DNA of 64,000 nucleotides, from NCBI RefSeq assembly GCF_021134715.1, contig NC_060021.1, positions 7,410,501 to 7,474,500 on the forward strand, written 5' to 3'. The notes beneath the pieces were generated by a model that was not told the DNA's origin, did no database searches, and saw only the letters and a list, made by a program, of their open reading frames with translations. Both the position numbers and the translations under genes were made by a program. This DNA is from Daphnia pulex (lineage: Eukaryota; Arthropoda; Branchiopoda; Diplostraca; Daphniidae). Shown piece after piece: positions 6,987-57,194 of the stretch (positions are counted from its first letter, which is position 1; every line of letters starts with the position of its first letter).

Positions 6987-9661
6987 CTATTTTTTGCGAT
7001 AGGTCTTGCTCAGAAGTCCTAAAAAGCCTAAAATACGTAAGCCGACAATCATAGCAACCAAGCACCAAATGTCTCGACCAAAGTAGTCCTGAAATATGAA
7101 AATGAGTAATTAGTATGACAATTAACGTATATAAAAGTGTTATATACATTAATTAATTTCTAATTACCGGGTTAAATTGAAATTGTGCTAAAATGGCCTC
7201 CCCGGTGCACACTTCACCTGGGCAGCCCGTGTCGTTAAAGGTGACGCCAGACCATTGATTGATCGAAAGTGCCTCATTGCCGTACATGAACCAAGAGATA
7301 TAGCGCATCCAGTCAAAGTAGACAGGTACATCTTCGTTCGACAAAAAGAATCCTCCAAACAACAGCAGAGGAATAACTAGTGCAGGTGCTATAGCGAGAG
7401 CAATGTCAGTCGTGCCAGCAATGCACGAGACCATAAAACCTAAAGAACAGACATGTCGAAAAGAATTGAGTAAATTGCGTAGTCGTAAATTTTTTTGTTT
7501 TTTAAATTTTTACCGAATGCAGAAGCTACGTTAGCGACAAGAATGATGATCCCGCTGGCGATAAAAAACCTGTCGGCAGCCGGATTTAATCCAATAGCAA
7601 AGTAGGGTATTGATATGAAAATGAAGGGCAGAATAATGAACAATGGGAGGTCAGCTAAAGATTTGGAAATGAAATAAACATCGGTCCGGTACATTCCGTT
7701 GAAATGTTCGCGCAGAAATATCGGCAGTTCAGCGGTTATCGCCTGTGAGGAGAGTTCCACAAAGAATATCAAATCACCTCTGTGTTACGTAATTTGCAGT
7801 AATATATTAACTTACATTGACGACTCCAAAGACATTTGAGAAAGTCATGTTGGTGAGGAATATGAAGAGAGCACCTTGAATGTTGCGAACGTCGTCAAGT
7901 AGAAGTGATTGCCCTTGGTAGATTGCTGCGATGAGAGCTGAAATGAACTGTTATGCGAGTGTTATTAAATCTGAAATTTGAACTGGATTTGACAGTAAAA
8001 CTTACAATAGTTTGGATAATCTTGACTCTTATGACCACTGGTTCCCTGAATACTGAAATAACCGACCGCCAAAACACGGCCCTCAGTTGAGCGATCCAGG
8101 AAGCCTTGTACGGAGTCCGGTTAACTTTTACTTCAGCCAATTCAAATTCTTGACTTTCGGTGGAATTCAGTGAACGATTGGCCTGGGCAATTTTTAGAAC
8201 TTGTTGACCCGCTTCCGATGAACTGTAAGCATCACAAATCTCCCTGTTTTTCTTTTTGGATTCCTCTTCCTGACCAGGGACCGTGGCCAGGATGTGAATG
8301 TAAAAATCGGCAGGATTGTAGTTGGGTGGGCATGACAATCCTTTCAAGGCGAAAAATGAAAGAGCGTCACTGGCCGGGCCGAGAAAGGCCGTTCTACCGT
8401 CAGCCATTAAAAGAATACGATCGAACATGGCAAACACTTCCGATGATGGTTGATGGATCGTACAAACCACCGTCTTGCCCGTGTCTGCAATATTTTTCAA
8501 GACCTGCCAATTTTACATTTGATTTAAATTTCTTTTCTCAAAATTCGTTTTTAATCGATTTACCTGAACGATGTTTTGTGCCATGTAAGAATCGAGACCA
8601 GACGTGGGTTCGTCACAAAACATCAACGAAGGATTGGTCAATACCTTTTTAATTTTTTGAAAGAAAAGCGCAAAAGCATTTGTTAGAGAATTTAAATTTG
8701 AAATTTTACTTTAAAAAAAAAATACCTCCGAGGCGAATGCCAGTCGTTTTCTCTCACCTCCCGAAATGCCTTTGACTCCTCTTTCTGGATGACCGATTCT
8801 GGCATTAGAACATTTGCCAAGCCCTAGTTCCCCCATGACTTCATCTACACGAATCATACGTTCTTGATACGTTAAATGTTTATCCATCCGTAACAATGCC
8901 TAGAATTACAATCGAAATTTTGAAAAAACTTTAAATTATCTCTTTTAATGAGTCGAAATAGACCTGAAAACGAAGATGTTCCTGGACGGTTAGGGTTGAA
9001 ATGAAGAGATCATCTTGTTGGACGTAACCGGAAATACGTGCTAGGGTATCCGTGTTTACTTTGGCGCCATTGAGGTTTCTTTCACCCGACACTTTCAATT
9101 GTCCTGTGTTTCTGAAAGTCAGACAATTTAGCAGAGTGGTTTTGCCAGCTCCGCTGGCTCCCATGATAGCCAAAAATTCACCAGGGCGAACACATCCGGT
9201 GACTAATTTTTCGAATGGAGACAATCACATTTTCTTGGTTATTTTATTTTTCTTTCAGAAAAATGTTACTACTACATACCATTGTCCAGAATTCGTTTCT
9301 GAGTTGGTGGCAAACGCTTGAAGCAATTTCCCTGTTTCTTTTCTAAGTAAACTTCAATATTTTCCCACGAATATGTCACAGGTTGTGACGCTTTCATTGA
9401 AAATTTAAAGTCCCCCTTTCCGCTTCCAAGGCTCGATTTCCTGCTGGATGTTCCATTCTCCCCCTAAACAAATTAAACATTTGTATATAATTTTTTTATT
9501 ATTTGCAGAAGATTTCTCGACATCGAAATTTCTTTCTTTGGAACTAGTACTTTTTGTAAATCTAGAATTGAATAACCTACCGTTTCTTTGTCGAACCCAA
9601 GATTAACAAAAGTTGCGTTTAGGGAATGTTGATCTTTGGTTTTTTCGGAATGTAACTCCAT
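6987..9661 (-). CDS. White-like ABCG half-transporter, copy A
   Basis: ABCG half-transporter of the white type: a nucleotide-binding domain followed by six membrane helices, working as a dimer. Drosophila White exports or imports pigment precursors; the substrate here is unknown. The first exon starts [12 protein letters not shown] (9661) and ends at a donor near 9582. The second carries [18 protein letters not shown]. Then come Walker [10 protein letters not shown] (about 9150), Q-loop GYVQQDDLF, signature [11 protein letters not shown] (about 8745), Walker [14 protein letters not shown] (about 8620) and the H-loop [10 protein letters not shown]. The membrane half has [20 protein letters not shown], the LLLFGGFFL helix and [12 protein letters not shown]. 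It ends SKTYRKK, TAG at 6987. Intact, with all key NBD residues present. It is one of three direct tandem copies and shares a stretch of about 480 bp, introns included, that is almost identical to copy C. Confidence 0.9.
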
Positions 9662-10305
9662 TGCTTGTTGTGTAAGTTTGGCTTGAGACCAACCTCAAAT
9701 TGACATCAAGCTACTTTGCTCTATAGAATGCAACTGACTTAATGTCGTGTCGAGGTTTAATCTTTTTATACAAAAATCACAAGCGAGTGATTGCCAGACA
9801 TGTTGCGTAATGAATATTTTCAATCTCTTATCTTGCGGGTTTTTGACTATTAGGTATTGGCCGCACAATGCCTTATCTTTCCAACCGTTGACAGAGATGA
9901 CTAGCTATTTTATACTGAACGAGGGTGTCTGAATTATCACATTTTCACTTTTAAAGTTCATTTGAATTTGAATAAAGGTTTGATTGTTTATTAAAGTAAA
10001 TTTTGATTAGTACAGGATTTGTACTGAACGCCATCGAACTAAAATTCGCCACCGTTATACTGTAAAATTCTGATACAAATTTTTTAAATTTTGCGATAGA
10101 GCGAATATTTATTTATTTTTCTTTTTGAAGCATTTTATTCTTTTAAAAGCATCAATCCGTCTATTTAAAAAAACTGAGAGTAGAGAATGTATTAAAAAGT
10201 AAAATGTAAACGGGAGAATTCGGGTGGACTCTATATAGTCAAAGAGATGCGACGTATGACTTGAAATCAAATTGCGTTCCATTAAAAAATTTTGCAATTA
10301 AACAT
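9662..10305. other. Spacer between ABCG copies A and B
   Basis: About 640 bases holding the presumed promoter of copy A and the 3' UTR of copy B. No reading frame of note and no clear TATA or initiator pair. Confidence 0.45.
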
Positions 10306-13300
10306 TTAATTTTTGCGGTAAGTCTTGCTCAAAAGGGCAAAGAAGGCTACAAGGCGGAAACCGACAATTAATCCGCACAATCCTCCAATGTCACGGTAGA
10401 AAAAGTTCTGAAATGAAAAAAAAAATAAAATGAAAATGACTCTTTGACAATCGTGTGAAATCAATCGAATACTTACCGGATTGAAGTCGAAATTCTCCAA
10501 GATTTTCTCCCCAGTGCAGACCCCTCTTGGACAGATGGTATCGTTGAAGGTGACACCAGACCATTGGTTGATGGAAAGTGCTTCATTTCCGTACATGAAC
10601 CAAGAGATGTAGCGCATCCATTCAAAGTAGAAAGGGACAGCTCCGTTTTGCAGAAAGAAGCCACCGAAAAGCAACAAGGGAATGATAAGGGGAGCGGCCA
10701 TAGCTAGGGCGATTTGTGTCGATCCAGCCATGCAGGAGATCATGTAGCCTGTGCGCCAATTTGTAAAAAGGATTATTTATCGATTACGTAATCATGCCGA
10801 AAGCTTTTCTTTTTTTCACCGAATGACGTCGCTACATTAGCGACAAGAATAACAATCCCACAAGCGATGAAGAATTGTTCGGCGCCCGGATTCAATCCGA
10901 TAATGAAGTACGGGATCGTGACGAAGACGAAAGGGAAGACTATGTAAACAGGCAAATCAGCGAGCGTTTTACACAGGAAGTAGATATCCGTTCGGTACAT
11001 CCCGTTGAAATGTTCGCGCAAGAATATCGGCAGTTCACTGGTTATTACCTGGTCAGAAAAGAATAAAATGGGATGTAAAAGAACCGTAATGTAAAAACAA
11101 AAAATAAATAAAAATGTAGGACTCACATTGACGACTCCAAAGACGTTTTGAAAGGTCATGTTGGTGAGGAAAATGAAAAGAGCACCTTGGATGTTGCGTA
11201 CGTTATCGTATTGAAGTGTCTGTCCTTGGTAGATTAGAGCAATGAGCGCTGAAATGAACTGCATTTGAAGGAAAAGTGCGTTAATTGATTACTTCTTACA
11301 TGAATGCCACATATTGAAATTACAATGGTCTGGAATGCTTTGACTCTCAAGACGGCTGGTTCTCTGAGCACGGAAAGTAAAGACCTCCAAAAGACGGCCC
11401 TGAATTGAGCGAACCAGGAAGCCTTGTAAGGGGATCTTTTGACTTTCACGTCATCAAGCTGAAATTCTTGACTTTCGGTTAAATTGAACGAACGATTTGA
11501 TTTGACAATTTCAAGGATTTGTTGACCGGCTGTTGAAACCTCATAGGCGTCACATATCTCCCTGCTTTTCTTTTTGGATTCGACCTCCTGACCAGGAATC
11601 GTGGCCAGAGTGTGGATGTAATAATCGGCAGGATTGTAGTTGGGTGGGCAAGGCAATCCCTGGGCGGAGAAAAAGGAAAGAGCGTCGCCAACGGGTCCCA
11701 GGAAGGCCGTTCTTCCTTCGGCCATCAAAAGAATTCGATCGAACAAGGCAAACACTTCCGATGATGGTTGGTGGATCGTGCACACCACCGTCTTGCCAGT
11801 TGACGCAATATTTTTCAATACCTGCCAATTGTACATTTTGTTTAAATTTCTTTTCTCAAAATTCGTTTTGAATTGATTTACCTGAACGATGTTTTGTGCC
11901 ATGTAAGAATCGAGACCAGACGTGGGTTCGTCACAAAACATCAACGAAGGATTGGTCAATACCTTTTTAATTTTTTTCAAAAGAAAAGCAATTGTAAGAA
12001 AATTAAAATTTGAAAACAAATTTTACTTTTTAAAAATACCTCCGAGGCGAATGCCAGTCGTTTCCTTTCACCTCCAGAAATACCTTTGATTCCTCTCTCT
12101 GGATTTCCAATGACTGTATTTTCACACTTGGAAAGTCCTAATTCATGAATGACTTGGCCAACACGAATCATTCTTTCGGCGTAAGTCAGATGTTTGTCCA
12201 TTCGCAACAGTGCCTAAAATCAAAGTACTCTATTAGTTTTGATTTACTCTTTGTCTTTTGTCGCTGACTAACCTGGAACTGTAGATGTTCTTTGACTTTG
12301 AGAGTAGGAATAAATAAATCGTCTTGTTGAACGTAGCCGGAAATGCGGGCCAAGGTATCGGTGTTAACCACTTCACCATTGAGATATCTGTCTCCGGAAA
12401 TTTTGAGTTTGCCCGTGTTCCTGAAGGTCAGACAATTCAGAAGAGTGGTTTTCCCCGCACCACTTGCTCCCATGATAGCCAGGAACTCACCAGGACGGAC
12501 ACATCCGGTGACTAATTGTTCAAAGAAAGAAAGATGTCATTATTGTATACGGTAGACGCAATGTATCAAGGAGGAAATAATGAAATACCATTGTCAAGGA
12601 TCCGTTTCTGAACTGGTGCGGAACGTTTGAAACAATTGCCCTGACTTGTTTCCAAGTAAATTTCAATATTTTCCCATGAATAAGTCGCTGGAGGAGATGT
12701 TGTAAAAGAAACGGTAAAGTCATCTTTGCCGTTGCTGTGCAGCTTGTTTGATCTCGATCGGGATTCCGCCCCCTATCAATTAAAGTTTTTATTTTAACAA
12801 GTAATTACAATATCTTATGCAAATAGGAAATTGTTTTAACTCTGAAATAATATCTTTTACTATCCTCAAATTATTGAATGAAAAATCCCATAAAGGTATT
12901 TGCCCAAGGCTACATTATCTAACTGGCTAAATTTGTGATGCAGAAGTAATTTAAGTTGCATTGACTAATAGGAAGTTTGAGTTCAGGACTTTTTTTTTCT
13001 CATTCACACCGCTAACTTGTGCCAAGCTTATGTAACATTGTAACAAGGGCTTGGCAGTAAGTCAGCTTAATGCGAGTTAGCTTTATGATGAAAGTTGGCA
13101 TTTGAAGTTGATTTTACTTTTTTAGTCATGATGACAATGCACTACGGTATCTGGTACAAGTAAACATCTGCAGGGTCAAAAATTTTCCAAAGCCAAGTGT
13201 GATAACGCAAACAACTTGTCGGTAATAAGTTCAACATTCAGATAATAACTTTGCTCGTAAACAGCTTGGCTTGAAAAATTTTTAAAACTGCTCTTTCAAA

Positions 13301-13467
13301 ATTATACAAAAGCAAGGTTTCATACAATTAGTTAATACCCACGCCTTTTTTGCTTGTTAATCCCTCAACAAAACCGTAATCATTAGATAATAACTTACTG
13401 CGATCGATGAATAGCCAGTACGACGAGACGTCTGGATTAAGCGCTGCTTTTCCTTGTGAAGAGACAT
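10306..13467 (-). CDS. White-like ABCG half-transporter, copy B
   Basis: Same architecture as its neighbours. The first exon starts [16 protein letters not shown] at 13467 and ends at a phase-0 donor (GCA before GTAAGT, about 13398). It joins across a roughly 620-bp intron to [15 protein letters not shown] at about 12770. Visible motifs: [17 protein letters not shown], Walker [10 protein letters not shown] (about 12460), [13 protein letters not shown], signature [11 protein letters not shown] (about 12060), Walker [14 protein letters not shown] (about 11930), [15 protein letters not shown], then membrane blocks ending SKTYRKN, TAA at 10306. Intact. The second half of its NBD (about 11535-11830) is nearly identical in DNA to copy C, while the first half is closer to an independent lineage, a sign of gene conversion. 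Substrate unknown; a pigment-precursor (tryptophan or guanine derivative) role is only an analogy with White. Confidence 0.9.
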
Positions 13468-14292
13468 GGTTGATGTCTCCAATTTCTTTCTTCTTCAATC
13501 ACACAAATACTTTTGCATAAAACTCGGATTAATAAAAAAATGATATTTCTAAAAAAAAATGGCTGACAGAATCCTCGTTAAAGGTGGTGAACTGAAAATC
13601 AAACGCACGTACGATCACTGACTGTTGTAAAAAAATTAAATAAAATGTAACCGAGCTGTCCTCGGCAATACTCGTCAGGTGAATGACTTGTACGGCTGTC
13701 TGGAAAAGAGTCTTTCATAGACACAAATGGCGAGATGAAACCCTCTAAGCGTTTAAAACCCTGCCAGACAGTCTTTTGTTTTCTTCCGTCTTGTTTTACT
13801 TTGTTGGCTGCAATTTACAGGGCTTCGCGCCATATCCGCTCGACATGTTGGTATTAATTCACAAAGGAGATATACTACTAGAGAGTAGATATGATATTCC
13901 GTATTGTGACGAGTGGCAAGTGCTGCCATATCAATAGTGTCAATATTGATGTGTCACACAACCGGAAGCTTAATTTGCCTAAACAATTAACGGGTTGATG
14001 TCTTTTTTGACGCCACTGCAGACGTTTTGATTTTTTTAAATCTTATCGTTCATTAGCGGATTGATAAGAGTTCATTCTTTTTCGGTCCTTTTTTTTTATT
14101 CTCTTTACGAACAAGAATTAAACTTAACTTTAACAATGCTGTGCATTCAATTGTGCTAGTAAATGACAACAACGGACTTGAAGGTATACATGTTCTCGCT
14201 GCTGGTATACAAGGGGGGATGTCATGAAACGAACGAGATTTGGTTTGATAATTTGATCGAGATTTGCTTGCGAGAGATTCGAGATTCGACCG
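13468..14292. other. Spacer between ABCG copies B and C
   Basis: About 825 bases of AT-rich DNA between the first exon of copy B and the stop of copy C. It would contain the copy B promoter. No coding exon recognised. Confidence 0.45.
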
Positions 14293-16946
14293 CTAATTTT
14301 TGCGATAGGTTTTCTTCAATAATGCTGAGAAGGCAAGGATCCGAAATCCGACTATGAGGGCGAAGAGACAGCCAATGTTGCGATAGAAATTGTCCTGTAA
14401 AGTAAAATAGGTGCGAGATTAAAAAAAAAACGAGCCTGAAATGGTAATCATTTAAATGTCGTATTATTACCGGGTTGAAGTCGAATTGTTTCAAAATGTA
14501 TTCTTCCGTACAGACGTGATTGGGACAAGGAGAGCGTGTGTCGTTGAAACTGATTCCGTTCCACTGGTTGATTGAGAGAGCTTCATTAGCGTACATGAAC
14601 CAGGAGATGTAGCGAAGCCAATCGAAGTAGACGGGCACGGAACCATTGCGGAGAAAGAAACCGCCAAAGAGCAGCAACGGGATGATGAATGGTGGGCCTA
14701 GTGCAAGTGCAACTCGGGTGGAGCTGGTCAGGCAAGAGATCATGTAACCTATATCACCAAATGAAAATATGTTGCGTCAGAAATCTTTAGAGCAAAAGTG
14801 TTTTTCTTACCGAAAGATGTGGCCACGTTGGCTAAGAGAATGACTATACCGCAGGCGATAAAGAACCTTCCTACATCGGGATTCAATCCTATGGCGTAAT
14901 AAGGAATGGCAACGAAAAGGAAAGGGAAAAATATGTAGACGGGGATATCGGCCGTAGTCTTGCACAGAAAGTAAACGTCAGTTCGATACATTCCGTTGAA
15001 GTGTTCTCTTAGAAAAACGGGCAGTTCCAAAGTAATATCCTGCATTAAACCGAATCGAATCATTCCTTTCCATAATAGCTTATCCTTTTTTTGAAATATG
15101 TCGACTTACATTAATGACTCCAAAGACACTCTGGAACGTCATGTTGGTAAGAAACACGAAGAGAGCTCCTTGGTAGTTTCGGACATTCTGGAATTCAAGG
15201 GTCTGTCCTTGAAAGATGAGTGCAATCAAAGTTGCAATGAACTGCAAAAATTCCCAAAAATCAGACGGTTACGTAGTTGGAGCAAATGGGGATTGAGAAA
15301 AATTTCAATTACAATAGTCTGGAATGCTTTGACTTTCAAAACTGCCGGTTCCCTTCTGATCGACAGGAAAGATCTCCACATGACAGCCCTCAACTGCGCA
15401 AACCACGAGGCTTTATAAGGCGAACGCTGAATTTTTACTGGTTCGAGATCAAGTTCTTGCGATCTGGACGATTTGATTGAACGATTGGCAATAACCATTT
15501 CTTGGACCAAATTTCCTGACTCGGACGAATTGTAAGCATCACAAATCTCCCTGCTTTTCTTTTTGGATTCCACTTCCTGACCAGGAATCGTGGCCAGAGT
15601 GTGGATGTAATAATCGGCAGGATTGTAGTTGGGTGGGCAAGGCAATCCCTGGGCGGAGAAAAAAGAAAGAGCATCGCCAACGGGTCCCAGGAAGGCCGTT
15701 CTTCCTTCGGCCATCAAAAGAATTCGATCGAACAAGGCAAACACTTCCGATGAAGGTTGGTGGATCGTGCACACCACCGTCTTGCCTTTTGACGCAATAT
15801 TTTTCAATACCTGCCATTGTACATTTTGTTTTAATTTGTTTTCTCAAAAGTCACATGGAATTGATTTACCTGAACGATGTTTTGTGCCATGTAAGAATCG
15901 AGACCAGACGTGGGTTCGTCACAAAACATCAACGAGGGATTGGTCAAAACCTTTTTAATTTTTTGAAAAAAAGCGCAAAAGCATTTGTTAGAGAATTTAA
16001 ATTTGAAAACAAATTTTACTTAAAAAAAAAATACCTCCGAGGCGAATGCCAGTCGTTTCCTCTCACCTCCCGAAATGCCTTTGACTCCTCTTTCTGGATG
16101 ACCGATTCTGGCATTAGAACATTTGCCAAGCCCTAGTTCCCCCATGACTTCATCTACACGAATCATACGTTCTTGATACGTTAAATGTTTATCCATCCGT
16201 AACAATGCCTAGAATTACAATCGAAATTTTGAAAAAACTTTAAATTATCTCTTTTAATGAGTCGAAATAGACCTGAAAACGAAGATGTTCCTGGACGGTT
16301 AGGGTTGAAATGAAGAGATCATCTTGTTGGACGTAACCGGAAATACGTGCTAGGGTATCTATGTTGACTTTTGCACCGTTGAGATATCTCTCGCCCGATA
16401 TTTTGAGTTTGCCCGAGTTTCTGAAAGTCAGACAATTGAGCAGAGTGGTTTTACCAGCTCCGCTCGCTCCCATGATGGCCAGAAACTCGCCAGGACGGAC
16501 AATTCCCGTGACTAAATTAAACGACAACCTTCGTTACACGTCTGCGGATAATAAATTGACTATTTTGACAATGACTTGCTCACCATTATCCAATATCTTC
16601 TTTTGAATGGGCGGAGATTTTTTGCACAGTCTCGTGAGGCAGTTGCCCGGCGTAGTTTCGTGAAAGACGGTTATATTCTCCCACGAGTAAGTCACCGGTT
16701 GCGATGAGAACGACGAGGATACGGTGAGCACCTCATCTTTCCCATTTTTCGTCAGCTCCGGCTGTTGGCTGGTCGGCACTGCCTTGTATTCGCTTTCCTG
16801 GAAATGAAAAAATAAAAACCGATGAATTAACGTATAGTTTTGATTGAACCCTCGATTGTTTTCGAAATGTTTACACGAAAAGAAGCTCGCTGGCTTTGTT
16901 GATTGAAAGCCAAAAGTAGAGGTTTTTTCTCGCCTTTAGAGCTCAT
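14293..16946 (-). CDS. White-like ABCG half-transporter, copy C
   Basis: Third tandem copy, farthest upstream in the direction of transcription. The first exon, [20 protein letters not shown], starts at 16946 and ends at a phase-0 donor (CGT before GTAAAC). Exon 2 starts [15 protein letters not shown]. Motifs: Walker [10 protein letters not shown] (about 16470), signature [11 protein letters not shown] (about 16060), Walker [14 protein letters not shown] (about 15930), [13 protein letters not shown], membrane-domain blocks [20 protein letters not shown] and [20 protein letters not shown], ending KKTYRKN, TAG at 14293. Its extracellular loop ([16 protein letters not shown]) has a two-residue insertion compared with A and B. 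The gene is a mosaic: exon and intron DNA near 15880-16359 matches copy A, and 15540-15820 matches copy B. An alternative first exon may lie near 17675. Confidence 0.9.
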
Positions 16947-19928
16947 CTTTCAACTACTGAATTACTTAACCAGCCATCAACGAATGACCTCAATGAAAAC
17001 GAAAATTGAAGCTGCTGGACAATATTTGTTTTGTGCCCTGTCATCATACAAATAGCCCCTTGTTGTATTCCGAGAAGAAATTGAACGATAACATACGCGA
17101 ATAATCTATGGAGAATTACATTAAGAAACAGAGGCGGACATGTGCGGCTTATCTGGAAACAGATAGTGTGTCAAAGCTTTTCTCTCTTTGGAGGTTATCA
17201 ACACAAATGACGGGGTCAATAAGCCCCTTGCTGTAAATTCGAGTATATCTCATAGAGATATTTTTATTTTATTTTTTTATTCTTTCAAGATTCAAGCCAA
17301 GGGCATTCAGCGATACAATCAATTCGCACTTTTTGGTTGTCAGCAATCGATCTCATTTGCGGTGGGAAATTTCCTCCTTCTTTAAAAATTCAAACTTGGC
17401 GGTTATTGATTGCGCAAGGAAAGCGGCGTTGCCTATTTTGACAGTTGATCGGTGATGACGTCAAGCTTTTATGGGAACGAAAAAAAAAGAGGCCTTGGCT
17501 CGAATGCATGACTTGCTGATTCTCCATCTTGGTCTCTTTGACAAAATGTTAACAATGGTGGTCGTGTGTCTACTGTCGGTATTTCCTACTTTTAAGAGTT
17601 TCTGTTCGCCTTGACGACACAACCGAGGCTGATTTGTAAACGAAATGCGATTCAATGTTACTCACCCACACATTCAGTTCCATTTGCGATATGAAATTTA
17701 AGTCAAATTGGCAGGCAAATTCCTGGTGTACCGGGCCCAGTGGTGGAGTTGTGCACCTGACTCTCAGCCTTGGAGCTGCTGATTTAAACACAGCGAAGCC
17801 TAGGCTCGGTTAGCTGCTCACTGGTGTTTGTTTAGATCGTTGGCTTGGCATCCGGCTGTTACGTCTGCTATGTAACAACACATGAGGCTGGATTCGTCGT
17901 GTGGTGTAGAGCGAGGGAAAGGGAAATCACCGATCGTTCGCCCTCTCTTTTGTGCCGTTGGCAATACCGGTACCCCCACCTTTAGGGATCTTTACAGACC
18001 AAAGAAAGAGGAGGGGGATGTTAGGTAACAGCACGAATTATTAATAAAATGCTGTCTCCCATCGGGAATAAATCTATATCGTGAATTAATCACGCGGCTG
18101 CTCTGCGCAGGCGCGAGAAAATTCTTTTGATTTGGAACGACCCACTTTTACTTCCTTTTAAAGTTTTCAAAGTCACTGTTGTCGCCTTTTAAAAATACAT
18201 TTCACTAATGAATTGGGTTGAGATAACAGCTGATTTGGTTTTTTTAATGGGAATCAATTAAGAGCAAGGGTTTTCGATTAAATAGGAAACGGTTGTTTTG
18301 ATATCTGTCGCAAGGGGAGTTGCGTAACAAGCCACGTAATCAAATCAATCTTGCTTTTAAGAAATTCACGGAGGGCTACCGCGACCGATTACCTCAGTTG
18401 CTGTGGTAACACCTCCGACGAGTTAGTCACGGTCACAGACTCGACATTTTTTTTTTTTTTCTGGATCGATATCTAAGGGATATTGACATTTTTATAATTA
18501 AATTTCCCAAGAAAATCGAGACACAACAGTTTTAACAGGTTTAAAAACTGTCGTGTCATGTTTAACAGAATATCTGAGCCTTGCTCGATTTTGTAGTCTC
18601 GTATTACCGTTACGTAATCGTCAATATTATTGGCTTGGTTGTTCATGGGGGGTCAGAACTGCTACGCAACGTCGTTGATAGCGCCCACCGGCCCACCTCG
18701 ATATGATTTGTTTTTCACGAATATCTCAAGATTATTCCACACAAAAAAAACAGAATCGAGAACTGGCGTCAAAGTGTGACGAGCGATCAACAAAAATATC
18801 GGAACTTTCTAAAACAAATAAATTGTCCGTGGGTATTGGGAATTGCCGGAAGTGAAATAACAATTTTTTTAAAACAATGTAAGAGCAACACTGTGGTATG
18901 TGTATTATTACTTCAGATTTTTACTAAATCTATAATATGAGAAAGACCAACATGATTCACGCACGTTCATCCAAAATAAACTTTGAAAAATATAAGAGCA
19001 TGAAAAAATTGGGGCTATGCAGAGGGAAATAAAAAAAAATTGTTTTCTATAATAACTCGGGGTGAAAAAAAAATTACGGTTTCCTCATCTAACCGTTAGT
19101 GGCAATGTCGCCAGTTTCATCTTACACAAAAATAGTTTCCTCCACCCTTTTTTTGTTGTTTTAGTTTGCAGCGTCTGTGTTATTTTTTTGAATTTTTTGA
19201 ATTATTTTTTTTAAGGCAAGGTTTGACGTATATCGGTTCACCTGTACACAAAACAACAACGTTACTAAATCCAGGGAAATTTTTTTCTTTTTTTTTTTCA
19301 AAAACCAGAAAAAAAAACGCGCAAAGAGAGCCTCTTTTTCTCCTATTTTCTTAAGAGGGGCGAAAGAATTGGGCGAGGGAATGGTCCCGTACAAGAATTT
19401 GAAAAACGAACGTTTTTTTTTTCCTTTTTTGATATTTCTTGTTGTTTCTTTAAAGGATATTTTCGTTGCGACACTTGTGTGAAATTGTTTCAAAGAGAAA
19501 TATAAATCTATATAAAAGGAAGTGAGAAAAAAAAACACATGTTTCATCGACGATGGGAAAAAATCAACTCTTCATCAGACTCGATCAAAATGCTCACAGG
19601 AAAAAAAAAATTTAGCCCCCAAAAATGATCTCGTTTCCAAAAAAAGGAAATAAAACAAAAATCTCTTCTTCTCTTCTGCTTTTTTTCCCCGCAATCCTTG
19701 ACAATTTTCGGGTGGTGCAAAGTGCATTGTTGTGTATAACATCTTCCGTTTTCGATTTTTCTTTTTTTCTTTTTTGTTGCATCAACCTTTTGTGATGTTG
19801 ATAAATGCGGTCGGTGATTGGTCCCATTCTAACTGTCGAGCGCGTCTGGTCGATCCAACGAGTCGAGGGTATCGTTGGACGACGAGTGAGAACCTGCAGA
19901 TCGGCAACTCGAATTTCATTATTGCGTT
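16947..19928. other. Intergenic: upstream region of the ABCG cluster and 3' flank of NAD kinase
   Basis: About 3 kb with no convincing protein gene besides the small candidate exon at 17.67 kb. Poly-T and poly-A runs are common from 18.4 to 19.9 kb. The part next to 19.9 kb is probably the NAD kinase 3' UTR. Confidence 0.5.
17666..17683 (-). other. Candidate alternative first coding exon of ABCG copy C
   Basis: On the minus strand an ATG opens the six codons MELNVW, followed directly by a strong donor (GTGAGT). The phase is 0, matching the phase-0 acceptor of copy C exon 2. The first residues resemble the copy A start (MEL). It could equally be a 5' untranslated exon with a chance ATG. Confidence 0.35.
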
Positions 19929-22900
19929 CTAGATTTTGATCAAAAAAAGGGTGTCAAACATACGAGTCAGATCGGAAAGTTCGTCCAGGTGTCGTTGCTT
20001 CTTGCGGACGTTCCAGTGCAGGCACTCAGCCAGCGAATCGAACCAGTCGGTGATTTGGTCCTGGGCGCAAATGGACGGCACCGGGTAGATGGATGTCGTA
20101 ACCCTCAGACTAGGAGGGGGGAAAGCGAGAAACACAAATTAGAAAGAAAACAACCAAATTCGGACGAGCAATTTGAGCTAGTTTTCTTTGTTTTTTGGTC
20201 GTGTGTCGAGTTGAGGTCGGGTTGAAAAGAGTCGAAGGTTCGAAAATGGGTGAAGCAAAAGCGAGAGAGAGATATAAGTGATGGGTTATTGCACAAACCT
20301 ATCTCCGACATTCAACTCTTGGTGATGTCTCCCGTCGAATGAGACCCAGGCCGTGTTGCGAGCATCGGGGTGGAGCGTCACCTGCGGCAGTAGGCAGCAA
20401 CAGTTCATTACTACTAACCAAGAGAGAACCGCACCTCGCACCGCAACGCGCAACAACCCACACAAAAACAAACGAAACACACAACACGCGCACAAAAGAG
20501 AAAAAACACACACGCATATGCCAACACCGTCAACCCATAACCATGCAACCCGCCGCGCACAAACAACAACTAGCCAACAACAGCAACGGCCTGGGCTCAC
20601 ACTTGTTGTTCCGTCAATGTCAAAACATTCTCAATCTATAAAGATAATAATTTGAACACAATTTCACCAGGCTTTTTCTAGTTGGGTTAGGGCAATCTCA
20701 TCACTGATAGGGGGGGGGCTAAGGTTTGATCATGGTGTGCAGTGGGGGGGAGTAGTAGTAGTACGTTCTTTGTATGTACAAGTTGTTTGTTTTATGTAAA
20801 GTGGGGGGATCGTCTTTTGTTTTTTTAGTTGTTTTGTTTTTTTTCGTTTGGATAAGACAAACCCACCTATCACCGTGCTTGAGCTCTTGGCGGCTGCGTC
20901 CGTCGAAGGAGACCCAGGCCGTGTTGCGACTCTCCGGAGATACCGATATCTGTTGTCATACGTATATAACACGCACACATACACGCGCCGCACATACACA
21001 ACATTTTCGAGGTTTTTGTTGGGTTTTAGTAATTGTTTTTTGGTTTCACATTGAATTATTAAATAATAGATTCTTACCCCCCTACTCAATGAAATGATAA
21101 TTTAAGGACATGGGAAATGCAAACAGAGCAAGTGAAAGTGATTAAAGAAATTCAAGCAAGTGAAACCGTAACTCTCAATCCCCAAAACATTTTCAATGAG
21201 ACTGTTACTTTTAGCCTCCTTTTTCTTTTTCTTTTTTCTCTCCACTATAGCGTGAAGGAATGTTTTGAGGAAAAAGAGACACGTGAAAAGAAATTATGTA
21301 TGGATATATAACCCCTCCCACCCCTCAAAGTGTTTTTCCGTTCCCATTTGATAAGAAAACAAAAGTCAAAAACTGATTCCTGTTTTCTTTTAATTATGAC
21401 GAATCGAATTGTTTTTTTTTTCTTGGGTGTTTAAATCACGCCAACGTCAACATACCTTGAGTTCAACACCAGCCGGGACGACGATGGGTCGGAAGGAGAG
21501 CGAATGCGGGCAAATGGGCGTCACCATAATGGCTGGCACGCTCGGGTGGATCATGGAGGCTCCGGCCGCCACGGCGTAGGCAGTCGAGCCCGTCGGGGTC
21601 GACACAATCAAACCTGTCCCAACAAAAGAGAGCGTGAGTCTGTTAAGAGTTTGGAAGCTTTCACCCACGGCTTGCCCCTTATAATTATCGACTATAGACT
21701 GCGCAGATAACAACATTTGGAAATCATCACACACTATCCAAACTGTTTGTTAAAACGATGCAGCCCATCTGTCTTATCTATTTCATCTATTTTTTTGGGA
21801 AGAAAATAGGTGGTGGTCAGGATCGCTTTAAGTTACTCTCGACACGTACCATCTCCCTGGACGGAGGTGATGTGTTTGCCGTCGAGGTAGAGGTCGATGT
21901 TGGATAGGTAAGGAGACGGCCCACGGTCAATGACCACCTCGTTGAGAACGAGGAGACTGGTAGGCGCTTTGGTGGGTTTGCCCGTCGCCTCATCTTTGCG
22001 CAGAATGATGCAGCGCAATCGGCTCCGCAGCGTCAACGCCGCATTACCTGGAAAAAGGGGAAAAAAAACAACGACACACATTTGGTTGGTTACTTTCAAA
22101 CTGGCCAGAATCGAATTATTTAGCCATTAAAAGTGAATTAAAAATTACCTTCTAGTACGTTAATCATCTGTTCCTCAAAATTGACGAATTCGAAGGGCGT
22201 CAGGAAGCCCAAACTTCCCAGGTGGAAGGCCATCACCGGAGGCACCGATTGCTAAATTCAATTGCGTCCATTATGAAATTGTAATGAGGACATTTTTTAT
22301 CGCCTTGACATTCAACAAGGAAAGAGAGAAATGCTTTCGTGTTGTTGTTGGTGTTGTTGTTGTTGTTGGGGAGGTATTTCGTTACCTGGAATAGAGAGCT
22401 AGCGTAGAGCAGAGTGCCATCGCCTCCCAGACAGACGATAAAGTCGATTTTGTCGGTGAGATCATCCTTGCCCTCGCGGAACGGCATGAGCTTGTCACGC
22501 GTCATGTTGAAACCCGGTTGGTTGCTGAGCAGCGGGTCGTCCAGCACCGAGTGCTCCACAAACACCACCATCCGTTTCTCCTGTGAAATAAAAAAAACCA
22601 ATCCGTGAATTTCGATTTGAATAGAGACAAACGGAATTGAAGGAAAAAAGACTTACCGTAATCAGCCATTTGACTAGTTGCACGAACGGAGACAAAACGG
22701 TGGCGTCGCGAACTTTTTTGATGACCAACACAGTCAACGGAGGCTTGTACCAAGTTAAGCGCTGACTGGCTGGATCTTGAATCGTCCTATTTGTTGAAAA
22801 TTAAAATAGAAAAAAGAATTAATAGAATTAATCCATCAGTAAAAAAGCCAAAAGACAAGAAAACAATAGCGTCGCTTTTTTGTTTTAAATGTTACCAGGT

Positions 22901-25900
22901 AATTCTCTGATTGGGACTTGTCTCGATCTTCATTTCGAGAGCTAACGGCGCTGTGCGTGTGCCTTTGACGAGCCGTGAGCAAACACGCCGGACACAAACA
23001 ACTCAACACGAACGTCTTATGTACAATCCACCTATACTATCCTCTCCTCTATCTGCTGCTCGCCCAGCGCTCTCTCAATTCCACTTGCAAGTCAGTCACA
23101 GTCCTTAACGGTGGGCCGGCCAAAAGTGCTCTTACCGTCCCTGACAACGCCCCACCACCGCCACACACACAAAAAGGAAAATACTAGCGGTGGGGTGGCG
23201 GCGGCGGGCGGGCGGGCGGTTGGTTTTTTTGGATGAATGAGAACGCGCAGCGCTTTGTGGGGTACCCGTACAATTTTGAAGTTTTTGTTTCTTGTTTTTT
23301 CTCCTGGCTACTCGAAATAATCCGCCCTCTTTAATTCGTTCGAATATTTCTGGCGTCTAAAATAACGACACTTTCACCTTCCAGGAGCTTCTGACGCAGT
23401 AACTCTCTTTCACACTCGATGATTAGAGTAGAGTAACGGGAAAAAACCTTTCCGTCTCATTCACCTGTAGGATTAGTAAGTCTCCTTTGAAAGGTTGTAA
23501 ATAAAAAAATAAATAAAAAACAACAAGCCAAACAATGGAATCCATCATAGGTGAATGAGTGCGACACGAAAGGCTGTCAATGTTATACCCGCGGGAGGAG
23601 AAATCTTGTAGAGGTAAAAGTGGGCCGATATTTTTTAACCACACCGCTGCTGGTCTAGCTGATAGTGGTGACTTGTTACTACTTAGTTAGCCGCTCATAA
23701 ATATATACACCCAAAAGAAAAAAAGAATAAAAAACCCGAACTAACACACGAAATGAAAACTAAGCGCACACCCCGTTACCGTACGCGCTCCAGCGCCAGT
23801 GTAGGCGAAGTTCAAGGTCTGGGTCCGGCGCTGGGCTCCGGCGAAAGTTTTTTTTTTCTTTTTTTTTCCCACTTTTGCGTCTTGGTCATCGCTAATTTAC
23901 AACCAAACAACATCAACGTGTGGGTCTGGCTGACGAAAGAAACGTCGAGTGAAATCTATGAAAACTGTCCTTGAAAACGAATAAAACCCAAAATTCCCTT
24001 TCTTCTTTTTTTTAACCATTAGTTATGTTTCTATTCTATACATACGAACGATTCGCGTTACGACTCTGCTGACCCAATCTGCCCCCCCACATTCTCTTCC
24101 CGTTACGACTCTGAGTCAAATAATTATTCATTTCTTCTTTTCTTTCACGGCGAGGTGAAAGCTGTCGATTGTGTTACATAAATTTCATTATCCCTACTCC
24201 TTCTTTTGTTCGTTAACATTCCAAACACAGATGTGGAAACTATGTTGGGACTATATAACTAACTAACTGCATTCATTTTTGATTCAGGAAAAACAAATTC
24301 AAAACTTACATGACCATGGCGGAATTCTTCATGATCCTGCCGCAGGGTCCGAACTGCTGGATGGGACTGGGTGCGTTCAGCGATCGCGTCCTCCTGTTGG
24401 ATCGATGGATCAAATACCGAAAAAGAAGAAAAAAAAACAAAACAGAAGATAAATAAACAGGTCAGTCACACATATTTGATTTTTTGTTTCGGCGTGGTGC
24501 ACATTTCGATTCGCGGTTTTATGGTGTCACGGTCCGTTCGGACGGACTGCGCAATCGAGAAAAAAAAAACCACCATCAAAACAATCGCCGAAAATCTTCT
24601 CTCGCTCAAGATGCCTGTTGTTGCGACCTTGGAGTGCACGAGAGAGAGAAATCCTTCGAGGTACGAAACAAATAGTAAACAATCCGCGCAAAGATAGTGC
24701 CGTTGGGTTTGCCAAACAAACACACACACATTCTCTTTCTCTCTCTTAAAAAACCCACATTTCAAATTCAAATTTTTTTACAGATAAAGTTAAGTAGAAA
24801 TCATAGCAACAACCTAACAGCTTCGCGTTTGATGGCCTCCACCGCCGATTTCTGAAGTGGATGATCCCCCATTACTTTGCCATTCAGATGCTGTTTACTC
24901 TTTTCGGCCATTTTGGGCTTCTTTTTTTGTTTTTGCGTTCAAGTTCACCTCGAGGATCTTTTATATCGTTCACGCAAGTGTTAAGTGGTTCACTTTAGTT
25001 TCTCGAGTTGTCACTTTCTCTTGCCCCAAATTAGTTTTCTAAAATATCGCAGAACATTGACGACTGGACTTTGGAATTTTCAAAAAAATTGTCGTTTCGC
25101 TGTTGTTGACAGTTGGCCACAAAATTCACACGTCCTCACCGTTGCGACTGGTGGGCGCCAAGTGACTGGACGAGGCCTCAGTTGAACGCGACGCTTGAAC
25201 TCCCCCCCCCCCCCCCCTGGAATTTCCCTGCTCCTCCTTCCATTGGCGTGACTTTTCATTCGTTTCGGTCACGGCCTCGTACGATGAACGGATTGAAAGG
25301 AAATACCTGGGTTTCATATTGGGTCGGCAGTGCCTATAGATAGATAGCAGTCAACCTAATTTGATGTCCTCAAGCTAAACATGACTCCCAAGTTCACTCG
25401 AGTTCAGGTGTACTGTACTGCACATTCCTTTCAATCTGGCACTCGAACTCTGATTGGATATCCCAGGGAAAAAAAAAGAAGCATTACAGTAAGTGATCCA
25501 TAAAATTTGTGGTTGGGAATTTGCTGTGTCACCGAGTCAAAAAGGTCCCCTTCAGGCTATGAGTTGCCCTCAGCTGTGCTTTCCAGCTAGGACAAAACCT
25601 CCTCCCCCTCAAGCTGCTGCCCTCAAGCAAACCACAAGACAGACGCATAAAAATTAAAATCAAAGGAATCCAATCATTTAACCAAATCATTTTCTGGGTC
25701 GTATCAATAGAATCTGTACTGTACTCACTTGTCATCTTTGCACCTGCACTGGTGAGTGGCATCGTGCAGACAGGCACCTTCCTCATCACCAAGTCTGAGA
25801 CCGTTGGAAAACTCAAGTGACACATTGTCCACCTGATCCACATTACTGGGAGAGATTGCTTTTTTATGACAGTCCATTGCGTAACGTTTTGAACCTCTTT

Positions 25901-41964: not shown

Positions 41965-43414
41965 ACGCCAGAAAATAAATTACTATTTGTAAAACGAACA
42001 CAGTGGAAAGAGAATGTATTTACTACCAGTACAACTCATCAAAACAATCCAAATTATGTCTCACCCAAGGAACAGATGGAATAACTCACAAGGTGTAAGA
42101 CAATATTATTCCGAAATTTTAGGCTCTTTGAACACGCTTCCTGTATTTAATGGGTGCCACTGAGCATACTGCACCGCAAGTAACCCACGAATCACACTCA
42201 AGAACGAAACATTTATTCTCGTCCTGTGTGAGAATTGTATCTGGAGAGTGGCATTCGTGACACAAGACGTATTCCAACGCATAGAGACGCAAAATGTCTT
42301 CAATCTTCTTATGACTGATGTATCCTCTTCCTGGGGAAGACAGCACGAGAGATGGGTAGTCATCTTTGGTTAGAACTCCACTAGCTCCCAACTCGGATAG
42401 GATAAACGATGATACGTGGCGTAGATCTCTACCAAGTTCTTTGCAAAGCAGTGAAAAGTTGTCGATGCAAGTTTTCTTATTTCCTCGTTTTACGACCTGA
42501 GGAAGACTAATGCAAAACTTGTTCTCAGGACAAGTGACGGAAATGTCAGTTCCGACCAACACGGTCTTTTCCGACTCAGGAGTTACGTCACATTTGCCGG
42601 TGACTAGTCCTTCGGTTTTAGGGGCGAGGTTTCCCAAGTCGCGCTGACAAAAGAGTGGCCGGGAGGATTCAATATCCATAATCTGTTCAGATAAATCCAT
42701 GCCCGTTTTCTTGATCCCGGTGCTCTGCGCTGGAACAGAGTTATCCATACATCCATGTTCCTCTGTTTCGACGGTCTGCGCCGGAACAGTTGGGTTATCC
42801 ACAAGTCCAGTCGTCTCAATCCTACCAAACTGCGGCAGAAGAGGAAGTTTCATTGATCCATTTGACTCTATTTTAGAGATCTGCGCCGGAAGATCGGAAT
42901 TTGGCATCACGTCAGAAGTAGATGTTTCTTTACGAATGAAGTCATCTTTTATGCTTTGAAACGATAGAAGGAAACAGGGGTCTTCTACGTTTTCCCCCTT
43001 AAGGAAATCATACCGTCTTCCACGACGGAAAAGGCACTTAATAGAAGCGAACAATTTCATTTTAACAACGATGAAACTTGTCTTTTGTCGAATATATGCA
43101 GCAAAGTAAGATTACAGAAAACTTGGAAAGCTTACTAACACCTCTATGAAGCAAGTATGATTTTGTGGTAGAGCCTCTTCGTACTTATACGCCTTCAACG
43201 AACATTTTCGGTTCCGCAAGTACTCCCGTGCTCACTTTTCTTCAATTTGATAAATGTGTTTTATCGAAAAAAGCTGAGTAATCATAAAATTATTCATCTA
43301 TGGGTTTTAACTTACATTATTCAACCATTTTTTTTATTTCGTTATCATATTAATTAGAAAAAGAACGAAAAATTTTACAGGTCTCAGCTGTTGACCGGTT
43401 GTTAATACTCCTTA
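41965..43414. repeat. Duplicated block, left copy (contains the eIF2-beta-like gene)
   Basis: The two ends of this block recur in the same order and orientation at 47747-48289: the left 165 bases (3' end of the gene, about 90 percent alike) and the right 235 bases (about 43180-43414, nearly identical). The central 1 kb with the gene is missing from the other copy. Confidence 0.85.
42119..43060 (-). CDS. Intronless protein with an eIF2-beta C-terminal domain and novel repeat N-terminus
   Basis: A 313-residue uninterrupted frame. Residues about 195-313 match the eIF2-beta alpha/beta plus zinc-ribbon domain: KKTCIDNFSLLCKELGRDLRH, FILSELGASGVLT, KIEDILRLYALEYV, CHECHSPDTILTQDE and CSVAPIKYRKR. 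The zinc ribbon keeps CxxC, but its second half reads CDSWVTCGAVC, about three residues longer than the usual CETCHSRC. The first 190 residues lack the lysine boxes of eIF2-beta. Instead there are about five imperfect repeats of roughly 17 residues around LPAQ/VPAQ and IES (LPAQISKIESNGSMK, VPAQTVETEEHGCMDNS). Real eIF2-beta binds eIF2-gamma and Met-tRNAi; whether this protein does is unknown. Lack of introns suggests a retrocopy origin. The open frame suggests it is functional. Confidence 0.75.
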   Translation of the reverse strand: MKLFASIKCLFRRGRRYDFLKGENVEDPCFLLSFQSIKDDFIRKETSTSDVMPNSDLPAQISKIESNGSMKLPLLPQFGRIETTGLVDNPTVPAQTVETEEHGCMDNSVPAQSTGIKKTGMDLSEQIMDIESSRPLFCQRDLGNLAPKTEGLVTGKCDVTPESEKTVLVGTDISVTCPENKFCISLPQVVKRGNKKTCIDNFSLLCKELGRDLRHVSSFILSELGASGVLTKDDYPSLVLSSPGRGYISHKKIEDILRLYALEYVLCHECHSPDTILTQDENKCFVLECDSWVTCGAVCSVAPIKYRKRVQRA

Positions 43415-43443: not shown

Positions 43444-43546
43444 ATTTTTTAAAAAAAGTGTTTTATCCAGAGATGTTGCACTTGCAGCAATTTTTTTAAA
43501 AAAGTGTATTATCCAGAGATGTTGCTCTTGCAGCAATTTTGTAATT
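43444..43546 (+). repeat. Two-unit tandem repeat
   Basis: Two adjacent copies of about 50 bases containing TTATCCAGAGATGTTGC and CTTGCAGCAATTTT, differing at a few positions, between the duplicated block and the coiled-coil reading frame. Confidence 0.8.
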
Positions 43547-44634: not shown

Positions 44635-44729
44635 AGAAGACATTGTCATGTCAATGGAGGCTGAAGAACTGACTGCAAGGTATTTTCCTTTGTTTTCCCA
44701 TATAATGAAGTGTTAACCTAATTTTACGT

Positions 44730-46970
44730 TTGTTAGATATGACGTTATTAAGAAAACGATACCCGACGAAGAAGAAAAGTACCGTGATGTCAGCAAGTCT
44801 TCGAGAAATTGATATCATCTGTAATGAGTTGGAAATGTTCGTGGAAGAGCAATATCAACTTCACGAGTCTGTCGGCGACCCCGAAAAAGCTTTTGATTTG
44901 AAACTCCACCTTTATCGGAGAGAAACAAGACAAGTTAGTTTCTACGAATTTGTGCATCGTGGACTAGTCCGGTACACCAACATGGAACATGAACGTTATA
45001 CACGTTCAATCATGGATGGTTTGACAGTGGGACAGAGAAAAATTATCTTCACTTGTATTAAGCGCAGTGATAAAGAAGAAGTAACAGTAGCCCAGCTCGC
45101 CGGTCTCGTAGCTGCAAGGACGTCGCTCTGCAACTACGGTGAAGAAAATTTGACTAGAACAATCATTGGATTGGCTCATGACTTCGTGGGTACGAACAAC
45201 ATCAATTTACTCCAGCCTATTGGCCATTTTGGCACTCGGCTGCAGGTACATAGTTTTTGTTGAATTTTACATGACTTGGGATCTTTTACATCTTTAATAA
45301 CCTCTTATTTATTGCCCACAGGGAGGTGAAGATGCTGCTAGCCCTCGTCAAATTTCGACTCTGATGAGCCGACTGACAAAGATAATTTTTCACCCATACG
45401 ATGATCGGTTGTTGAAACATCGAACGGATGGGAAACGGCTCATCGAACCCGAGTTTTATGCTCCCATTATTCCAATGATCTTGGTCAACGGAATTGACGG
45501 GATCGGCACCGATCGGACGACGTCAAGATTGATCTATAATCCACGAGAGATTATTGGAAATATTGTTATGATCGCCGCCGACTTGTCGACGTTCACACTT
45601 TTCCCAGAATTGCCCCCCCCCCTTTCTGCTTCCCTATTTTACTTGTATCTGTTTCACCTTATTCCACGGAACTCGACGATATAGCATCGTCGAGTGAGTC
45701 CTTCTTACCTTTCACGACTCTCTGACGTTGAGTTAGAGTTCCTTTTCCTTTCTTTTTTTTCCTTTGGATTGATAAGGCCACTCTTGTGTACCATCTTGAA
45801 CTAAGACGACGTCGCCGACAGCTCGGTACTCTTTCTAATAGCCAGGCTATCTTGTTTGACTTTCGTGTGTGAGTACCTTACCTTTGTTTGTCTGTCTTCG
45901 TTTTGTTTAATGTCGTGAATCGCATATGTGTAATTGCTGGAGCCGGAATACCACAAGTATGGCCGGTGGACGAGTCCAGGTAGACATGGTGTAGTGTGTG
46001 CTGGTATAGGACTCGTCGGCGAGTCCAGGCAGACACGGTGTAGTGTGGCCGGTACAGGACTCGCCAGTATTCTGTGTATGTGTAAGGAGTCGGAATACCA
46101 CAAGTATGGCCGACGGGGCGAGTACAGGCAGACACGGTGTAGTGTGGCCGGTATAGTACTCGCTAGGTTTATGTCAGGAAATAAAGACCGAGCTACTGAG
46201 ACTTATGCTCGAGTCCCCCGATTTCATAACAATATCATGAGGATGTTAAACGGCGAAGAACCTATCTATATGAATCCATGGATTAAAGGTAATTGAGTTA
46301 ACTGTAAGAAAGGTATCACGAAGTACAACATTTCTATTTGTTATTTTTCAGGTTACCAAGGGAGCATTCAAAGGGTCGATGATAACACATACGTTATCAG
46401 TGGTGAAGTATCAAAGCTTAGTGCAACACAGGTTGTAATCAAAGAACTTTTGCTGGGAATTTCAGTTCGAAATTATAGAGAATCCGTAATGGAGAATTTG
46501 TTGCACGGCTCAGAGAAAATCCCGTCCCTTATCACTTGATCACTGGCTACAAAGAAAACCATACGGACACTACTGTACGATTTGTCGTAAACATGACGGA
46601 AGAAAAGATGCAACAAGCTGAGTCTCAGGGATTCCACGACTTATTTCGACTCCAATCTACACTAACCGTGACACCCACGTTGCTGTACGATCCAAACGGT
46701 TTTCTGAAGATGTATGACTCTAATAATGACATCTTGAAAACATACTTCAATGTCCGTCTAAGTCTATTCGAGGAGAGAAAAAAACTCTTAACTGGTGAAC
46801 TTCAAGCTTCGTGTAAAAAGTTGACCAATGAAATCAGATACGTTCGCGCAATATGGAACGGTGATTTAATTGTCAACCGCAAAAAGTGTTGGAAACGAAA
46901 GACGTCCCCAACGGCCGACGACGAGATCCGGCCGAACAACCAGGATTCCGGCCCATTTAAGGGAATATGA
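44730..46970 (+). pseudogene. DNA topoisomerase II core fragment, catalytically dead and broken
   Basis: Matches the winged-helix and tower part of eukaryotic topoisomerase II: FYEFVHRGLVRYTNMEHER, DGLTVGQRKIIFTCIKR, VAQLAGLVAA, NNINLLQPIGHFGTRLQ, GGEDAASPRQISTLMSRL, PIIPMILVNGIDGIGT, YVISGEVSKL, and NHTDTTVRFVVNMTEEKM. The ATPase and TOPRIM domains and the C-terminal gate are absent. The cleavage tyrosine (SPRY in active enzymes, Tyr805 in human TOP2A) is glutamine here (codon CAA near 45346), so it could not cut DNA. Introns at about 45246-45321 and 46290-46352 are still present, so this is not a processed copy. The frame is broken near 46520 by what looks like an 8-base duplication (ATCACTTG repeated) and is interrupted by a solo LTR. 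It follows the coiled-coil frame directly and may once have been fused to it. Confidence 0.8.
45564..46231 (+). mobile_element. Solo LTR of an LTR retrotransposon (probably Ty3/Gypsy-like)
   Basis: A 668-base insertion inside the topoisomerase-like frame. It starts TGTTATGA and ends TCATAACA, the TG...CA form with short inverted ends, and is flanked by a 4-base target duplication ATAT. An AATAAA lies near the 3' end (about 46180). Its 3' third holds three imperfect tandem units of about 47-50 bases (about 45965-46165). No internal coding part is present, so it is a fossil left after LTR-LTR recombination. Family assignment rests only on end structure and duplication length. It is younger than the topoisomerase fragment it interrupts. 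Confidence 0.75.
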
Positions 46971-50070: not shown

Positions 50071-53093
<3,023 letters not shown>

Positions 53094-56686: not shown

Positions 56687-57194
56687 ACTATCAAAGAACC
56701 AAAAATTTATGCAAACGAAAAATTTTATACGCAGTTAAAACTGGATTGAAATCTGCGCGGTTATGTGAGTGCTGTGGAGCAACTCGGTAAGGTTACTGGA
56801 ACGTGATCTATATAATATTCCAATTTTTTTTCAATCATTAAAATTCCTTCTCTTATACGTTCCTGTTGATTTCCAATCGAGATATTTGGCTAATACATTA
56901 TACAACATTGGTCATGAACTAAACTATTCAACAAAATTATTCGAAACTGAAAAAAATCTAACTTTTATTTGAAATACAGTACAATTTTTTTATTGGATGT
57001 ACATTAAAGTTAATGTGACTTCATCGCCGCTTTCACGGAAAAGATACAAACAAATCACTTTAAAAAGCAAAACCGTCGACAAATTCTCATTAACTACATC
57101 CAACAGAATCTATTTGGAACTAATTCGACCACATTTGTATGAATCAGAAATAGCGACGAATAAGCGTTAACAAACTTCCCATAGCTTGACTATT
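56687..57194. other. Convergent spacer between 6PGD and prohibitin-2
   Basis: 3' UTRs of two converging genes. AT-rich; no coding exon. Confidence 0.55.

Follow-up and report, generated by a model that had tools for sequence, protein, structure and literature searches.

Can one NAD kinase gene supply two forms of this NADP-producing enzyme by choosing between adjacent copies of one exon? The question is raised by a stretch of 64,000 nucleotides (nt) of the Daphnia pulex genome (contig NC_060021.1, forward-strand positions 7,410,501 to 7,474,500; hereafter the window, in whose coordinates all features are given). Here, a NAD kinase gene on the minus strand carries two homologous 83-nt exons, designated 7A and 7B, side by side between the same flanking exons. 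From their sequences, we consider it likely that this duplicated exon has been kept as a mutually exclusive pair, which would give two active isoforms of NAD kinase.

A NAD kinase gene with two copies of exon 7

To establish the identity of the gene, the two predicted isoforms, one with 7A and one with 7B, were translated from a short first exon (22933–22896) and compared to known families and structures. Both scored above the Pfam cutoffs for both NAD kinase domains (for PF20143, the 7A form reached 135.0 bits and the 7B form 131.8 bits), and the top PDB match for either was human NADK, at 503.4 bits for the 7A form and 493.7 bits for the 7B form. Identity to the human NADK fragments over two aligned blocks was 60.5% and 80.3% for the 7A form and 60.5% and 78.3% for the 7B form. 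Together with the two domains, the GGDG and NE motifs and a Gly-rich block make up the hallmarks of NAD kinase found in the gene; motif names are those used in PMC12052686 and PMC8553519. The assignment made in a first-pass annotation of this DNA was therefore borne out by the Pfam domains and by the best PDB match, and the gene is, by sequence, a NAD kinase of the cytosolic animal type.

The coding exons, all on the minus strand, run from exon 2 (22657–22786) through exon 3, which holds the GGDG motif (22386–22580), exon 4 (22149–22251), and exon 5 (21850–22047) to constitutive exon 6 (21456–21613), which encodes the STPTGSTAY block and provides the donor common to both choices. An intron (20950–21455) precedes exon 7A (20867–20949), of whose 27 residues 21 are identical to human NADK. 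A 485-nt intron with a UGU-rich 3′ part (20382–20866) separates it from exon 7B (20299–20381), in which 18 of 27 residues match the human enzyme. There follow a 189-nt intron (20110–20298), constitutive exon 8 with the acceptor common to both choices (19964–20109), and the last coding piece, which includes the stop codon (19829–19893). At the 5′ end, two exons fit the phase of exon 2: a probable exon farther upstream, belonging to a longer form (24310–24393, limits read by eye) and a probable alternative first coding exon (22896–22933), the latter read from the genomic sequence. Combined with 7A and 7B, these two 5′ exons could yield four proteins.

Several features of the pair described in the first-pass annotation proved exact. 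The two 83-nt exons lie between the same flanks, enter in phase 0, and leave in phase 2, correct to the base, and the length of the intron between the copies, the donor after 21456, and the acceptor before 20109 were confirmed. The claim that the reading frame demands one of the two exons also held: 7A alone or 7B alone leads to the same stop and a protein of 371 residues. When both are included, Arg followed by TGA arises at the 7A-7B junction, and translation ends after 302 residues, 225 nt short of the last junction; when exon 7 is skipped entirely, the product has 301 residues and the stop lies 62 nt before the last junction. The annotation's placement of the segment just after STPTGSTAY, in the NAD/NADP-binding domain, had to be corrected, as the segment starts about 40 residues later, in the C-terminal beta-sandwich (PF20143).

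Comparison of the two copies showed that 57 of 83 bases and 17 of 27 residues are the same, so that 31% of exon bases differ. At the codon level, 11 of 27 match exactly, 6 show silent differences, and 10 carry replacements; an 11-residue core is unchanged in protein, with three silent differences, and the residue swaps include SPES/HPDA, SR/HH, and KH/NV. When the 7A peptide was searched against the 64-kb window with tblastn, 7B was recovered at E = 8e-10 and the next row had E of 0.28; no third exon copy was evident in the window by this search. The pair displays the features by which mutually exclusive tandem exons are recognized, namely, adjoining homologues of equal length and phase with intact splice sites, and, at the level of the frame, joint inclusion and skipping are both unproductive, with early stops in either case.

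Constraint on the pair and location of the differing residues

To evaluate whether the copies differ as chance would have it, substitution rates were estimated by the Nei-Gojobori method, and random change was simulated. Over the whole exon, the nonsynonymous rate (dN) between 7A and 7B was 0.32 and the synonymous rate (dS) 0.90; the core gave 0.04 and 0.54, and the part outside it 0.60 and 1.37. In our reading, dN of the core exceeds zero in the absence of residue differences because the method averages paths, and a change from CGC to AGA can cross a replacement. In the simulations, 26 random substitutions were placed on 7A in each of 20,000 runs. The 11-residue core was kept in none of these runs, and 10 or fewer amino acid changes resulted in 0.2%. 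A stop codon was absent in 48%, and an open frame by itself is for that reason weak evidence. Protein-level constraint acts on the exon pair, as fewer residues have changed than would be expected from random substitution.

A family yardstick was provided by an alignment of 68 bacterial relatives with both isoforms, one human fragment, and one POS5 fragment. The relatives were drawn from 150 pattern matches in a protein search of genome contigs, are prokaryotic, and serve only for this purpose; the corresponding search of viral contigs gave 7 pattern matches and no relatives. The exact core pattern had no match in the genome contigs and none in the viral contigs, both being collections without animal genomes. 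The Asp-Gly of the core was the same in all 66 aligned sequences with a residue there, 2 being gapped. The ten columns at which 7A and 7B differ were more variable across the family than the other 17 (2.71 versus 1.90 bits; permutation P of 0.004), with one of the ten resting on only 17 sequences.

The position of these residues in the fold was assessed on a structure model of one bacterial relative (L016), which stands in for the isoforms and was built from an alignment of 26 of the 68 sequences, its own included. The model had a predicted local distance difference test (pLDDT) score of 90.0 and a predicted template modeling (pTM) score of 0.87, and its best PDB match was the P. aeruginosa NAD kinase. 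Exon positions 1 to 3 form the end of a strand, and positions 4 and 6 lie in the loop after it, with position 7 having no partner; positions 19 and 20 begin the strand after the Asp-Gly turn, and positions 24 and 25 fall in the next loop. Judged from this model, the residues that differ between 7A and 7B sit in loops and at the ends of strands in the beta-sandwich.

In human NADK, the segment corresponds to approximately residues 368 to 395, as placed by hand from the PDB alignment and the GGDG numbering (182 to 185) of PMC12052686. The tetramer-contact residues listed in the excerpt of that paper (Asp289, Arg290, Asp314, Tyr327, Ala329, Ala330, Met335, Cys349, Leu353, Arg356, and Leu425) all lie outside this range, though the paper also describes a dimer contact made by strand beta14, which the segment might touch (PMC12052686). 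A placement of Listeria NADK1 His223 in this segment was looked for in PMC7660225 without success, and this residue is not used here. From the sequence we infer that exon choice may affect affinity, regulation, or oligomer contacts, as had been proposed in the first-pass annotation. Most likely, the isoforms would share their basic chemistry and diverge in regulation, stability, or contacts.

Splice signals and candidate regulation

To examine how one copy might be chosen over the other, we surveyed the splice sites and the three introns around the pair. Dinucleotides are GT-AG at both copies and their flanks, and no U12-type donor was found by eye, no dedicated U12 scan having been run. The splice sites had been called good in the first-pass annotation; this stands for the dinucleotides and the donors, and the 7A acceptor is unusual. 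In calculated U1 pairing, the 7A donor was the strongest of ten (−9.8) and that of 7B reached −7.0. Two known routes to exclusion were considered and set aside. Mixed U2/U12 sites do not fit sites that are GT-AG throughout and, by eye, include no U12-type donor, and steric clash does not agree with an intron of 485 nt and an AG 29 nt ahead of 7B. A branch point beside the 7A donor does not fit, because of this same AG.

Pairing between introns, a check that the first-pass annotation had put forward, gave a divided result. In the whole-intron test, the middle and last introns paired at −94.2 versus −69.5 kcal/mol, with 0 of 100 shuffles as strong, and 89% and 40% of shuffles were as strong for the first-middle and first-last combinations, respectively. 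Local 36-nt tests, in which the shuffles keep base composition in 50-nt blocks, were negative for all three pairs: shuffles were as strong in 38 of 60 cases for first-middle, 43 of 60 for middle-last, and 47 of 60 for first-last. We lean toward the local test, since G and T are frequent in the 3′ part of the middle intron and A and C in the last intron, but intron pairing may still contribute.

The 7A acceptor is preceded by 123 nt free of AG, compared to 14 to 88 nt at the other internal acceptors, and a TACTAAA lies ahead of it with its A at −77. Within the last 100 nt before the exon, TGT occurs 8 times for 7A and 7 times for 7B, compared to 1 to 4 times at the seven acceptors of exons 2 to 6, 8, and 9; the count for the probable upstream exon was 5, with limits 1 to 2 bases off. 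Among 100-nt windows on both strands of the 64 kb, 1.2% had at least 7 TGT and 0.8% at least 8; for windows restricted to the coding strand of the gene, the tracts themselves included, the corresponding values were 5.7% and 4.4%. CELF/Bruno proteins bind UGU-rich tracts. One CELF protein is reported to act on the exclusive exons of unc-32 (PMC3585155). The UGU-rich 7A acceptor, possibly with a distant branch point, is a lead for regulation and not a test of it.

Competing readings, neighboring genes, and comparable systems

In the reading that we favor, a single internal coding exon of a cytosolic-type animal NAD kinase gene was duplicated in tandem. Exon 6 would be spliced to one of the two copies, and that copy to exon 8, and messages with both exons or with neither would carry early stops and be removed by nonsense-mediated decay. 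The choice would probably be set by proteins reading the UGU-rich tracts ahead of each copy, with the 7A acceptor relying on a remote branch point. This would yield two full-length NAD kinases with the same Asp-Gly turn and different loops and strand ends in the C-terminal beta-sandwich.

Several points weigh against this scheme. A stop 62 nt before the last junction sits near the usual threshold for nonsense-mediated decay, so that decay of the message lacking exon 7 is uncertain. As to regulation, the local tests contradict the positive whole-intron pairing test; a low pyrimidine content is not peculiar to the 7A acceptor (0.48), as exons 4 (0.43) and 9 (0.48) have it too; and the UGU counts come from one genome. 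The pair itself was seen in one genome, and the relatives aligned are bacterial sequences plus human and POS5 fragments. Constraint was measured on the pair as a whole and cannot tell which copy bears it. Finally, the use of both exons is predicted from genomic sequence, which leaves room for one copy to be a relic, or too rarely used to matter, with only the other at work. The greater closeness of 7A to human NADK, in residues and in bits, looks as if 7B were drifting. However, both copies retain frame, phase, splice sites, and a core with silent changes. The 7B form scored slightly above the 7A form against yeast POS5 (179.4 versus 177.8 bits), M. tuberculosis (93.7 versus 92.5 bits), and P. 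aeruginosa (132.0 versus 131.2 bits), and below it against human, Salmonella, Yersinia, and Archaeoglobus. By these scores, 7B cannot be put down simply as an inferior version of 7A, and we regard a relic as improbable.

The stop that double inclusion places at the 7A-7B junction, well upstream of the last junction at 225 nt, is also what one would expect if the pair served mainly as an off switch, in which double inclusion or skipping lowers NAD kinase through regulated unproductive splicing. A simple poison exon, however, would have no need to remain in frame, constrained, and family-like as a copy of part of the catalytic domain, and both copies have done so; this makes such a switch very unlikely as the main role. 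An assembly artifact or a very recent duplication has nothing in its favor beyond the presence of two copies, and it is hardly credible given the divergence of the exons and the results for the introns, as pairwise comparison of the three gave no row with E below 0.01 and only short rows of at most 30 nt. Overall, a mutually exclusive pair with two active products remains the reading that we prefer. That it acts as a switch in the catalytic domain, set by tissue or condition, through which one gene with two beta-sandwich surfaces would place NADP under two kinds of control, we offer only tentatively, as the less probable extension.

The remainder of the window was surveyed with Pfam and with a scan for similarity between neighboring open frames (1,630 frames of at least 25 residues; same strand, less than 3 kb apart, E < 1e-3). 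The scan gave 6 rows, of which 2 were two reading frames of the exon pair, 2 were both strands of one ABC-transporter pair, 1 was WD40 repeats, and 1 was a 14-residue tandem repeat. This last is an open repeat in two adjoining copies, KIAARATSLDNTLF / KIAASATSLDKTLF, at 43453–43540 (−). A tandem array of ABC-2 type transporters occupies 7895–15843 (−), with Pfam matches in three scanned frames and a further ABC-2-like frame, taken from the list of open reading frames, at 15226–15843 (−); long open frames also occur on the opposite strand, mirroring the coding sequence. Pfam also identified pieces of other genes, namely, perilipin (1104–1646, +), an eIF5/eIF2B domain (42119–43111, −), type II topoisomerase (44709–46970, +), enolase (51279–51653, +), Band 7/SPFH (57809–58288, −), and MBOAT (59900–60535, +). 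The NADPH-making enzyme 6-phosphogluconate dehydrogenase (PF00393) is encoded at 55653–56738 (+), about 31 kb from the NAD kinase gene, possibly by coincidence.

The exclusive use of duplicated exons is a familiar form of animal splicing, with OGDH as a metabolic case (PMC7969005). Mhc, Dscam1, and cacophony likewise have adjoining homologous exons, matched in length and phase and bounded by common flanks, of which one must be chosen, whereas here the gene is NAD kinase and a single pair is involved, read from a genome. OGDH exons 4a/4b (PMC7969005) are exclusive exons of an energy-metabolism enzyme, in which branch points lie far off and a long tract leads up to an acceptor; in the present gene, it is the first copy, 7A, that has the candidate for a distant branch point, and the AG 29 nt before 7B argues against one there. 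In helminths, coq-2a and coq-2e also represent a splice choice within a metabolic enzyme (PMC7434440), but that choice changes the product made, and for the NAD kinase pair no such change is demonstrated. Among arthropods, Drosophila CG33156 and CG6145 are relatives of human NADK1 (PMC5336252, PMC5730107). D. melanogaster has two NADK1-like genes (PMC5336252), of which CG33156 has five isoforms (PMC5730107) and is expressed most in the ring gland (PMC5336252, PMC5730107). The two genes share the task there, in contrast to an exon pair within a gene here.

Exon choice in NAD kinase may be older and already annotated, if one of the CG33156 isoforms reflects it. The Kassiopeia database, for its part, covers twelve Drosophila species, A. 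thaliana, C. elegans, and human (PMC3923563). No report of mutually exclusive exons in NAD kinase was found in the searches made of open-licence literature, which is weak evidence of novelty.

If NADP were indeed under two kinds of control, these could serve, for example, in making steroids, in detoxification, or under oxidative stress; flies split this task among separate genes. Regulation of human NADK has been placed in the N-terminal region (PMC12052686), and natural forms that are ten C-terminal residues apart would be a ready-made experiment on other surfaces controlling NADP production. The exon pair would also add a core cofactor enzyme to the enzymes tuned by exon swapping, such as OGDH (PMC7969005).
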